This document shows, in pieces, positions 3,592 to 53,535 of a stretch of DNA of 62,204 nt. The notes under the pieces were generated by a model, which was not told the DNA's origin, did no database searches, and saw only the letters and a program-made list of their open reading frames with translations. Positions within the stretch are counted from its first letter, which is position 1. Every line of letters starts with the position of its first letter. This stretch comes from Clostridiales bacterium (GTDB taxonomy: Bacteria > Bacillota > Clostridia > Lachnospirales > CAG-274). The translations under genes were made by a program, and so were the position numbers. The stretch covers positions 1-62,204 of the forward strand of contig JAJQFU010000056.1 in the NCBI GenBank assembly GCA_021200955.1. Direction: 5' to 3'.

Positions 3592-4443
3592 TTACATATT
3601 CGCAGCTTTAGCCGCTTCAAGGCAATTTTTCATAAGCATAGCTATTGTCATAGGCCCTACTCCGCCGGGAACGGGAGTTATGGCATATGCCTTAGGCTCA
3701 GCGGTTTCAAAGTCTACGTCTCCGCTGAGCTTCTTGTTTTCCCCTCTGTGAATACCTACGTCAATAACAACAGCGCCTTCTTTAATATAAGAGCCGTCTA
3801 TAAACTTAGGCTTTCCTATAGCAACAACCAAAATGTCGGCTCTCTTTGTAATGCTCTTAAGGTCTTTTGTTTTGGAATGGCAGATTGTAACCGTTCCGTT
3901 TTCTTTAAGAAGAAGCATAGCCATAGGCTTGCCCACAATGTTTGAACGGCCTATAACAACGCACTCCTTCCCCTCGATTTCTATGCCCGTTCTCTTAATA
4001 AGCTCGATTATTCCGGCAGGAGTACAGGGAACAAAGCCCTTTTCCCCTGTCATAAGAGCCCCTGCGCTTTGAACGTGAAAGCCGTCAACGTCCTTTTCGG
4101 GGCTGATTGCTGCAATAACCTTGCTTTCCGAAATGTGCTTAGGCAAGGGCAGCTGAACCAAAATGCCGTTTACGTTTGAGTCAATATTAAGCTCCTTTAT
4201 GAGCGCCAAAAGCTCTGTTTCGGTTATGTTTTCGTCCGGATTAAATGACTTTGAAATTATGCCCGTATATTCACAGGCTTTTTTCTTGTTGCCTACGTAT
4301 ACTGTTGAAGCAGGGTCGCTGCCAACCTGAATAACAGCCAAAGCCGGAGTTATGCCCCGTTCTTCCTTAAGTTCGGCGACCTCTGCCTTAACCTCGTCCT
4401 TTATGCTTTGGGAAATTGCCTTTCCGTCAATAATAATTGCCAT
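3592..4443 (-). CDS. folD: Methylenetetrahydrofolate dehydrogenase / methenyl-THF cyclohydrolase
   Basis: Interconverts 5,10-methylene-THF, 5,10-methenyl-THF and 10-formyl-THF, feeding purine and formyl-Met synthesis. It is 283 residues, the normal size. Family landmarks are visible: the [14 protein letters not shown] catalytic Tyr/Lys segment, QLPLPKHI, the PAGIIELI and [11 protein letters not shown] dinucleotide-binding region, and the near-C-terminal [15 protein letters not shown]. The start ATG (complement of 4441-4443) follows a GGGAGGT ribosome binding site. It is the first gene of the minus-strand unit that continues through the sensor-like gene into folC. Its promoter and a partial copy of the CTATAAAAG repeat lie upstream. 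Confidence 0.97.
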
Positions 4444-4475: not shown

Positions 4476-4518
4476 TCAAGCTTGCTTATCTGATTGTCCA
4501 TTGAGAACGCTTTTACAG
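4476..4518 (-). repeat. Truncated copy (A) of the CTATAAAAG leader element
   Basis: Read on the minus strand this begins ACTGTAAAAGCGTTCTCAAT, then AATCAGATAAGCAAGCTTG, matching the first ~45 nt of the full element at 52799-52964. The right half is missing. It begins directly after the folD -10 box, so it would form the 5' end of the folD transcript. Confidence 0.65.
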
Positions 4519-23649: not shown

Positions 23650-24675
23650 TTATTTAATAACCTTAATCCAGCCTTCGGGAGCTTCGATTCTGCCCATCTG
23701 AATGCCTGTTAATGTATCATAAAGCTTCTTAATAACGGGGCCCATTTCGTCCATACCGCTGGGGAAGCAGATTTCCTTGCCGTGGTCAACAATCTTGCCT
23801 ACAGGTGAGATAACCGCAGCTGTTCCGCAAAGACCGCATTCCGCAAAGTCCTTAACCTCTTCAAAGGGAACCTCTCTGTGTTCAACCTTAAGTCCCAAAT
23901 AATGTTCAGCCACATACATAAGAGAACGTCTTGTGATTGAGGGGAGAATACTGTCGGACTTAGGTGTAACAACTGTTCCGTCCTTGGTTATGAAAAGGAA
24001 GTTAGCGCCGCCTGTTTCTTCAACCTTTGTTCTTGTAGCAGCGTCAAGATACATATTTTCATCAAAGCCCTGATTGTGAGCGTCAACAATCTGATAAAGG
24101 CTCATTGCGTAGTTAAGACCGGCTTTAATGTGACCTGTTCCGTGAGGTGCGGCTCTGTCATAATCGCTTACTCTGATAGTAATGGGCTTTGCGCCGCCCT
24201 TGAAATAAGGACCTACAGGAGTAGTGAAAATTCTGAACTGATATTCCTCAGCGGGCTTAACGCCTATAACGGGTGAGCTGCCGAAAATAAAGGGTCTGAT
24301 GTAGAGGGTTGCCCCTGTTCCGTAAGGAGGCACATAGTCAATGTTTGCTTCAACTGTTTTAACAACGGCTTCAACGAATTTTTCCTTGGGATAAACGGGA
24401 ATTTCAAGTCTTGCGGCGGACTGCTCAAGTCTTTCGCCGTTAAGGTCGGGGCGGAATGTTACAATGTGACCGTCAACTGTGGTATATGCCTTTAAGCCCT
24501 CAAAAACTGTCTGGGCATACTGCAGAACCCCTGCGCACTCGCTTATAACTATGTTTGCGTCCTCTGTAAGAACGCCTTCGTCCCACTTTCCGTCCTTAAA
24601 GTTGGAAACAAATCTCTTGTCGGTCTGCTGATAAGCAAAGCCCAGCTTTGACCAATCTATGTCCTTTTTTGCCAT
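23650..24675 (-). CDS. ilvE: Branched-chain amino acid aminotransferase
   Basis: 341 residues, class IV PLP aminotransferase interconverting Leu/Ile/Val and their 2-oxo acids with glutamate. Visible landmarks: FEGLKAYTTVDG and FRPDLNGERLEQSAARL (substrate side), the PLP-lysine segment HIKAGLNYAMSL, EETGGANFLFI and CGTAAVISPVG. The length and the YTGIQMGRIEAPEGW-like C-terminus fit the BCAT group II. It stands alone, with its own promoter and the full B copy of the CTATAAAAG element in the leader. I looked for a T-box, since BCAA genes often carry one, and found none. Confidence 0.96.
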   Translation of the reverse strand: MAKKDIDWSKLGFAYQQTDKRFVSNFKDGKWDEGVLTEDANIVISECAGVLQYAQTVFEGLKAYTTVDGHIVTFRPDLNGERLEQSAARLEIPVYPKEKFVEAVVKTVEANIDYVPPYGTGATLYIRPFIFGSSPVIGVKPAEEYQFRIFTTPVGPYFKGGAKPITIRVSDYDRAAPHGTGHIKAGLNYAMSLYQIVDAHNQGFDENMYLDAATRTKVEETGGANFLFITKDGTVVTPKSDSILPSITRRSLMYVAEHYLGLKVEHREVPFEEVKDFAECGLCGTAAVISPVGKIVDHGKEICFPSGMDEMGPVIKKLYDTLTGIQMGRIEAPEGWIKVIK

Positions 24676-24743
24676 AAAGCATACTTCCTTTCATTTTTTA
24701 TCGTTTTTTTTAACTTTCATTTCTACTTTTCAGATACCGCCTG

Positions 24744-24907
24744 CTATAAAAGTCTATTGCTACGTGCTTCGCACTCCCGCAATAGACCCTGTATTCGCAC
24801 TCCGGGTTATCACCCTACGTTGCTCATACGGGTTAGGTTGTCTGATACACAGCCATCTGTGCAAGCAAGCTTGCCCATCTATCTGTCTATCGACAACACT
24901 TTTATAG
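24744..24907 (-). repeat. Full copy (B) of the CTATAAAAG leader element, in the ilvE leader
   Basis: 164 bp, read on the minus strand: left end CTATAAAAG (24899-24907), right end CTTTTATAG (24744-24752); the ends pair with each other. Inside: an arm GTTGTC...GACAAC with loop core GGCAAGCTTGCTTGCA, a conserved linker CCTAACCCGTATGAG, and an arm GTCTATTGC/GCAATAGAC with inner GTGC-GAA-GCAC. It resembles copy D (52799-52964) throughout, with paired changes in both arms. Confidence 0.85.
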
Positions 24908-24909
24908 TA

Positions 24910-24938
24910 ATTATATTCCTTTAAAATGCCTTTGTCAA
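24910..24938 (-). promoter_or_regulatory. Promoter of ilvE
   Basis: Minus strand TTGACA (24933-24938), 17 bp, TATAAT (24910-24915). The repeat element begins 2-3 nt after the -10 box, so the transcript would start within the element's left arm and the leader is ~230 nt. Confidence 0.85.
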
Positions 24939-51188: not shown

Positions 51189-52283
51189 TTACACATTAAA
51201 TCTGAATAAAACTACGTCTCCGTCTTTAAAGACATAGTCCTTGCCTTCACTGCGGTAAACTCCGGCTTCCTTAGCCGCCGCTACAGACCCTAACTTAACA
51301 AGGTCGTCATATGTAACAACCTCGGCTCTAATAAAGCCCTTTTCAAAATCAGAGTGAATTTTGCCTGCCGCCTGAGGCGCCTTTGTGCCTTTGGTAATAG
51401 TCCACGCGCGGCACTCCTTTTCACCGGCTGTCAAATAGCTTATAAGCCCCAAAAGGTCATAGCTTGCGGAAATGAGCCTGTCAAGACCGCTTTCCTTAAG
51501 ACCCAGCTCCTCTAAAAATTCAGCCTTTTCCTCCGGGTCAAGCCCGGCAATTTCCTCTTCTATTTTGGCGCAGATAACAAAAACTCCGTCTCCGCTTTCA
51601 GCTGCGTGCTTTCTTACCGCTTCGGTGTACTCATTTTCGCCGCCGTCGGTGAGACAGTCTTCGTCTACATTTGCGGCGTAGAGAACAGGCTTAAGGGTCA
51701 AAAGATTAAAGCTTTTGACGATTTCCTCTTCCTCTTCGTCCAAAAGCTCAACCTTTCGGGGTGAAACTCCGTCCTTAAGTGCTTTTTCGATTCTCTGAAG
51801 AACCTCAACCTCTTTTTTAAGGCTCTTATCCGACATTGCCTGTTTAGCGGTTTTCGCCAAGCGTCTTTCCACAATTTCCAAATCCGACAGCATAAGCTCA
51901 AGGTCGATTGTTTCAATATCGCTTATGGGGTCAACCTTTGCCGCTACGTGAACGATATTCGAGTCTTCAAAGCAGCGTACAACGTGAACAACTGCGTCAA
52001 CCTCTCTTATGTGGGATAAAAACTTGTTGCCGAGACCCTCACCGGCTGAAGCTCCTTTAACAAGCCCTGCAATATCCACAAATTCAATAACCGCCGGAGT
52101 AATCTTTTTGGTTTTATACATATCGCCCAAAACATCGAGCCGCTTATCGGGAACGGCTACAACCCCAACATTGGGGTCGATTGTACAAAAGGGATAGTTA
52201 GCCGCTTCGGCTCCCCCTCCTGTCAGGGAATTAAAAAGAGTGCTTTTTCCCACATTGGGCAGACCTACAATACCTAACTTCAT
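51189..52283 (-). CDS. ychF: Ribosome-associated ATPase YchF (OLA1 family)
   Basis: 364 residues. P-loop [16 protein letters not shown] (about 3-18), Switch [27 protein letters not shown] in place of the GTPase NKxD (hence ATP preference in YchF), and the TGS domain at the C-terminus ([33 protein letters not shown]). Binds the 50S subunit and is redox-linked. In its leader is copy C of the CTATAAAAG element. Confidence 0.96.
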
Positions 52284-52331
52284 TTAAGCTCTTTCCTTTC
52301 AATGAAAACTTAAAACTTTGCTCTGCAGATA

Positions 52332-52405
52332 CTATAAAAGTTGATTCCTCGTTGAAGCAAGCAATGCTTATTTGCTTTGTCTATCTATCGACAACACTTT
52401 TACAG
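52332..52405 (-). repeat. Short copy (C) of the CTATAAAAG leader element in the ychF leader
   Basis: 74 bp. On the minus strand it starts CTGTAAAAGTGTTGTCGATA, as copy B does, and ends CTTTTATAG. The middle and the CCTAACCCG linker are deleted; AGCAAATAAGCATTGCTTGC replaces the arm. Same orientation relative to the downstream gene as the other copies. Confidence 0.75.
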
Positions 52406-52641: not shown

Positions 52642-52998
52642 AATTTTACTTCCTCCTTATAAAAAAGTATGGTTTCCTTAACACATATGATACATTATAT
52701 TTATTATAACACACATTTCAGCCGTTTAAAAGAGATTTTAATAAATTTTTTCAAATTTTTATGGAAAAATTTCTCTAAGTGGTTTATACTATAAAAGTGT
52801 TCTCAATGTTTAATCAGATAGGCAAGCTTGCTTGCATAGATGATTGGACATTAGAGAACCTAACCCGTATGAGTAAGCAGCTATTTTTCGTAAAAAAATG
52901 AGCGGATTACGAATACGGTTGGCGATTGCGAGAGTGCAACGCACGAAGCAATCGGCTTTTATAGTGAGTAGTTTCCAACAACACAGGAGGTATAATAT
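52642..52998. other. Intergenic region holding leader element copy D
   Basis: 357 bp between divergent genes. Apart from the full repeat copy at 52799-52964 and a probable minus-strand promoter near 52712-52739, nothing else is seen. Confidence 0.6.
52799..52964 (+). repeat. Full copy (D) of the CTATAAAAG leader element, upstream of the NUDIX gene
   Basis: 166 bp. CTATAAAAG ... CTTTTATAG ends pair. First arm GTTCTCAATG.../...CATTAGAGAAC around the conserved GGCAAGCTTGCTTGCA; linker CCTAACCCGTATGAG; a variable A/T hairpin (TTTTTCG-TAAAAAAA); last arm CGATTGC/GCAATCG with inner GTGC/GCAC. Compared with copy B many arm bases differ but pairing is kept. The right end lies 34 bp before the NUDIX ATG. 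Confidence 0.85.
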
Positions 52999-53535
52999 AT
53001 GTATAAAACCCTTAAAACCGAAAATATTTTTAAAGGCAAAATTTTAGATATAAAAGTAGACACAGTGCTTCTGCCTAACGGCAACACAACCACAAGAGAG
53101 GTTGTTATTCACAATGACGCTGCGGCTATGGTAGCCGTTGATGACGAAGGCAAAATCCTTTTCGTAACCCAATACCGCCACGCCATAGGTCAGGACCTTC
53201 TTGAAATCCCCGCAGGCATTCTTGAAGAGGGCGAGGATCCTCAGGAGTGCGCTCTTCGTGAGCTTGAAGAGGAAACATCCTACAAGGCAGGGAAAATCCG
53301 TCATCTGACCTCATTCCACACTTCAGCCGGCTGTTCAAACGAGGTTCTTCACATATATCTTTGCACAGAGCTTACAAAGGGCAGCTATAACTATGACGAA
53401 TACGAATTTTTGACAGACAGCCGTTTAACCCTTGACGAAGCTATGTCAAAAATACTTTCCGGTGAAATCACAGACAGCAAAACCATAATAGGTATTCTTA
53501 TGTATAACGAGCTAAAGAAACAGCTGATTAATTAG
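52999..53535 (+). CDS. NUDIX hydrolase, ADP-ribose pyrophosphatase type
   Basis: 178 residues. The Nudix box is complete: GILEEGEDPQECALRELEEET (G-x5-E-x7-RE-x-EE), about residues 74-95. Upstream VTQYRHAIGQDLLEIPAG is the substrate loop of ADP-ribose pyrophosphatases (NudF type); the length also fits. It turns ADP-ribose into AMP and ribose-5-phosphate. AGGAGG 9 nt before ATG. Copy D of the leader element sits immediately upstream. Confidence 0.92.
   Translation: MYKTLKTENIFKGKILDIKVDTVLLPNGNTTTREVVIHNDAAAMVAVDDEGKILFVTQYRHAIGQDLLEIPAGILEEGEDPQECALRELEEETSYKAGKIRHLTSFHTSAGCSNEVLHIYLCTELTKGSYNYDEYEFLTDSRLTLDEAMSKILSGEITDSKTIIGILMYNELKKQLIN

Follow-up and report, generated by a model that had tools for sequence, protein, structure and literature searches.

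The four related elements in the window (the whole 62,204-nucleotide stretch of DNA from a Clostridiales bacterium analysed here) are probably two intact copies (B and D) and two decayed copies (A and C) of a mobile repeat that is MITE-like and non-autonomous, with a folded core that corresponds to the Rfam family RF01699, Clostridiales-1. A preliminary description of this DNA had offered a MITE-like family and an undescribed cis-acting RNA as alternatives, and had preferred selection on RNA structure. In favour of the MITE-like alternative are the number of copies and their patchy distribution, the empty sites, the target duplications and the decay of copies, whereas the preferred reading proves to have been weakly argued. 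The elements and their surroundings are as follows.

about 4478 to 4518, minus strand: copy A, a 5' remnant in the leader of folD (gene 3592-4443, minus)
24712 to 24743, minus strand: 3' tail hairpin belonging to copy B but not covered by the Rfam model, from sequence reading and alignment with other copies
24744 to 24907, minus strand: copy B, full-length RF01699 core (108.9 bits), leader of an ilvE-like gene at 23650-24675, minus
24910 to 24915, minus strand: TATAAT box ending 2 nt before copy B, itself preceded by TTGACA at a distance of 17 nt
52309 to 52405, minus strand: copy C with its tail (core 52332-52405), internally deleted, leader of a ychF-like gene at 51189-52283, minus
52789 to 52964, plus strand: copy D, full-length RF01699 core (119.5 bits), 34 nt before a NUDIX-like gene starting at 52999

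All four copies that had been claimed in the window are present and point toward the start of the downstream gene, a TATAAT box does lie 2 nt before the start of both A and B, and the paired arm changes listed between B and D are correct. The coordinates needed small changes: B had been placed exactly, but D had been started 10 nt late, the tail of C had been missed, and A had been started at 4476. Copies B and D fold into a three-way junction, with z scores of -8.3 and -8.7, respectively, and in neither case was any of 200 shuffled sequences as good. In most copies the repeat does not end with the RF01699 model but continues 3' of it for about 30-35 nt, forming a tail hairpin.

In an Rfam covariance-model scan, copies B and D matched RF01699 over the full model (positions 1-166; gathering score 48), and copies A and C fell below the gathering cut-off. 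By the Rfam criterion the window copies are members of this family, and the full-length match rules out an undescribed RNA family. Rfam lists RF01699 under the type Gene; sRNA, and gives no function. The study that reported the Clostridiales-1 motif lists it as probably an RNA, neither cis-regulatory nor a switch, and its main text does not discuss repeats or mobility for it (Weinberg et al., 2010; PMC2864571); the few other papers found to name Clostridiales-1 or RF01699 appear, judging by their titles, to mention it incidentally. No description of RF01699 as mobile was found in the literature searched, from which most subscription journals are missing. The published motif and the window copies have the three-way junction and the conserved loops in common. 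However, what is catalogued as a gene for a small RNA is here the core of a longer unit that has a 3' tail hairpin and empty sites in relatives, and that in other lineages is also flanked by target duplications, unlike the catalogue picture.

The genome-wide count that the preliminary description had proposed gives 23 matches to RF01699 by model scan in the window's own genome (G000), and 31 by blastn. These copies are scattered and non-coding, as is typical of MITEs. The eight sister species (G001 to G008) carry 15, 19, 2, 0, 2, 16, 0 and 0 copies, respectively. Within the order, 56 of 295 genomes carry the family, and in a sample of 398 genomes from the phylum its matches were confined to this order. 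A survey of gene context confirmed no copy inside a gene, and element B gave no match indicating carriage on a plasmid or phage. On another account, which follows the Rfam type, RF01699 would be a small RNA gene that stands on its own and has many paralogues. Loops conserved across genera would agree with this, as would the good promoter found directly 5' of a few copies, for example the TTGACA-17-TATAAT arrangement before B. However, most copies have no such promoter, and the spread from 0 to 19 copies among sister species, with gains and losses between close species, makes this a very improbable account.

Empty sites in relatives, which had been suggested as something to look for, exist for C, D and nine other copies. 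Copy C is missing from G006, where the junction is clean, and is present in G001; the site of copy D is empty in G001 and holds a different insert in G006; and for the nine further copies of G000, the corresponding locus in G001 and/or G006 lacks the element. Insertion, rather than deletion in the sister species, is the parsimonious reading, although some empty sites have diverged and do not amount to proof at each locus. Where copies are shared, they decay. Copy A is a 41-bp remnant of an element that is full-length at the same site in G006, the orthologue of copy B in G001 has lost 76 nt internally, and copy C104 is degraded in both G001 and G006. Across eight shared pairs the divergence of the element ranges from 0 to 25%, now below and now above that of the flanks. 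Such behaviour does not look like conserved function at each site. The insert that fills the copy D site in G006 (L056) belongs to a second repeat family, a CCCCTTGAGGGGAGG-type hairpin, which is also seen at L303 and other loci and is present in many copies in both G001 and G006.

The boundaries of the mobile unit are clearest in G253 and G279. Near-identical copies in these genomes span from TGACGTAAGGGTCAAAAG to CTTTTGACACCTACCTCA, which form an imperfect terminal inverted repeat, and AT-rich target duplications of 5-6 bp flank 19 of 20 copies, compared with 61 of 380 mismatched flank pairs (16%; Fisher p about 1e-13). Both terminal inverted repeats and target-site duplications, as expected of MITEs, are therefore found in these two genomes. 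In three genomes the end motif had 51, 64 and at least 25+38 occurrences, whereas the reversed control gave 0-1. Elements of 39-49 bp that consist of the ends alone also occur, and may have arisen by internal deletion between short repeats. Non-coding sequence, multiple copies, inverted-repeat ends, target duplications and short internal-deletion derivatives are all features of the MITE type. In the genus of the window, only the closing stem formed by CTRTAAAAG and CTTTTATAG is clear at the ends. The left boundary is sharp in this genus and in several other genomes, with TTAC preceding the TATRAAAG start at 50 of 71 distinct sites (background 0.4%). The right boundary in the window genus is not sharp, TTA, TTTA or TTTT flanking many copies on both sides, and copy C142 shows no target duplication. 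The core is common to several genera, while the end sequences differ among them.

The preference for TTAC, together with hairpins close to both ends, raises the possibility of a non-autonomous derivative of an IS200/IS605 element, inserted after TTAC by a Y1 transposase. Against this, the Y1 transposase domain (PF01797) is absent from all six carrier species in the genus (G000-G003, G005 and G006), making it an unlikely mover there, and the target duplications in G253 and G279 vary between 5 and 6 bp. To our knowledge, variable duplications of this size are not expected of the IS200/IS605 family, and we consider such an origin very unlikely. The three species without RF01699 (G004, G007 and G008) show the opposite pattern and do encode the Y1 transposase, a mutual exclusion that may reflect shared ancestry only. 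The end matches inspected, from three genomes, revealed no autonomous partner, no transposase with these ends and no parent insertion sequence; pairs of such matches separated by as much as 1.9 kb enclosed ordinary genes or were separate small elements. This result, like the blurred right boundary in the window genus, counts against the mobile reading.

One argument for a cis-acting leader RNA, regulating the downstream genes and selected for its structure, was that every copy in the window lies in the sense orientation just 5' of a start codon. This uniformity holds in the window only. Among informative co-directional sites across the genus, 12 copies are sense and 4 antisense (p 0.08), rising to 22 and 7 (p 0.008) if copies in divergent regions are also assigned to their nearest gene, a call that is close for some of them; in G253, G279 and G137 the copies are divided 5 to 6, with no orientation bias. 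The pattern in the window is mostly a matter of small numbers. The placement of the element just after a TATAAT box was borne out, but for a minority of copies: a TATAAT with at most one mismatch lies just upstream of 13 of 38, five of them exact, whereas at control AT-rich sites the proportion is 14% (p 0.002). Both trends could arise if the element targets AT-rich sequence in promoter regions and insertions within genes are purged. Furthermore, no stable link to orthologous or functionally related genes was found, the downstream genes being unrelated and the positions not kept in sister species, and copies common to several species decay freely. Taking these points with the pairing data below, we regard a regulatory leader as improbable. 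As a separate observation, copies L031, L034 and L040 (contigs C104, C111 and C32 of G000) lie directly 3' of leader RNAs, a SAM riboswitch in one case and a T-box in the other two, so that each copy separates the leader from the start of the gene.

Paired changes in the stems had been taken as a further sign of selection on RNA, and they are abundant. Among 118 aligned RF01699 matches, 43 of 46 pairs vary on both sides, and the paired share of cells is 93%; it falls to 73% on shuffling and to 45% or less when the arms are slid. A constraint on RNA pairing would, however, be expected to produce a strong excess of G-U over A-C on the RNA strand. In cells flanked on each side by a Watson-Crick pair, G-U accounts for just 38 of 2559 (1.5%), whereas acceptor stems of tRNAs from the same loci, a small control of 31 tRNAs, have 16 in 214 (7.5%). 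When events were de-duplicated, 34 G-U were counted against 17 A-C, a twofold difference, as opposed to 16 and 0 in the tRNA stems; these counts come from model-confirmed, cluster-level, register-checked matches. Because the stems are almost purely Watson-Crick, paired changes alone are no proof of RNA selection. Template switching is known to create and repair hairpin arms at the DNA level (PMC8794818); it could account for the paired changes, including swaps of G-C to C-G, and the scarcity of G-U fits its action on DNA palindromes. The argument from paired changes is consequently a weak one, and the family illustrates clearly that covariation in a palindromic repeat, however heavy, is not by itself readable as RNA selection.

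The unpaired loop sequences are also conserved between genera. This counts in favour of a leader RNA and against the mobile repeat that we prefer, since a passive palindrome does not explain it; from these loops the folded strand may have some sequence-specific role. A further reading, which we think very unlikely, would make the core an RNA that aids its own spread, as in a bacterial SINE-like or RNA-dependent mobile element, with the core held constant across genera and the ends changing with the transposition machinery of each host lineage.

According to the model of a MITE-like repeat, copies would be moved in trans by a putative transposase acting on the ends of the element, and would insert between genes, at TTA/TTTA sites rich in AT. 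In a minority of cases the insertion would fall immediately downstream of a -10 box, and the copy would then be transcribed as a leader. Pairing in the stems would be upheld, at least in part, on DNA through template-switch correction of the palindromes, and any effect on the downstream gene would be a by-product of insertion. The closest analogue in behaviour, compared through published descriptions only, appears to be bcr1 of the Bacillus cereus group. The bcr1-bcr3 repeats are approximately 100-400 bp long, multicopy, intergenic and MITE-like, often lie in UTRs and are associated with a TTTAT motif at their insertions (PMC6542083; PMC3446304). The RF01699 repeat is likewise multicopy, intergenic and MITE-like, and would in a minority of copies be part of a leader; the bcr repeats belong to another bacterial order, however, and the motif at insertion is TTTAT rather than TTA/TTTA. 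These results suggest that the core of a mobile repeat has been filed in Rfam as an orphan 'sRNA'; the annotation of RF01699 across the order would change accordingly. If so, there is no reason to expect matches to this family to regulate the genes that adjoin them.

Several variants of the element were also seen. Four long ones in G000 (L046, L024, L039 and L042, on contigs C107, C55, C91 and C138) carry an extra structured module inside the element or replacing part of it, with the sequences CATTCATTTC...GCATAAATGC... and ...CGTTTAAAGCC...GGCTTTAAACG...; a scan of three of these four found no Rfam family for the module. At L051, L052, L053 and L182, RF01699 units are arranged in tandem arrays, those of L182 being joined through a common TTTAC. 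Finally, L113, L128 and L152 in Lachnospiraceae show a GCAAGCTTGCTTGC...ATGAGYA pattern just 3' of tRNA genes, and score below the RF01699 cut-off.
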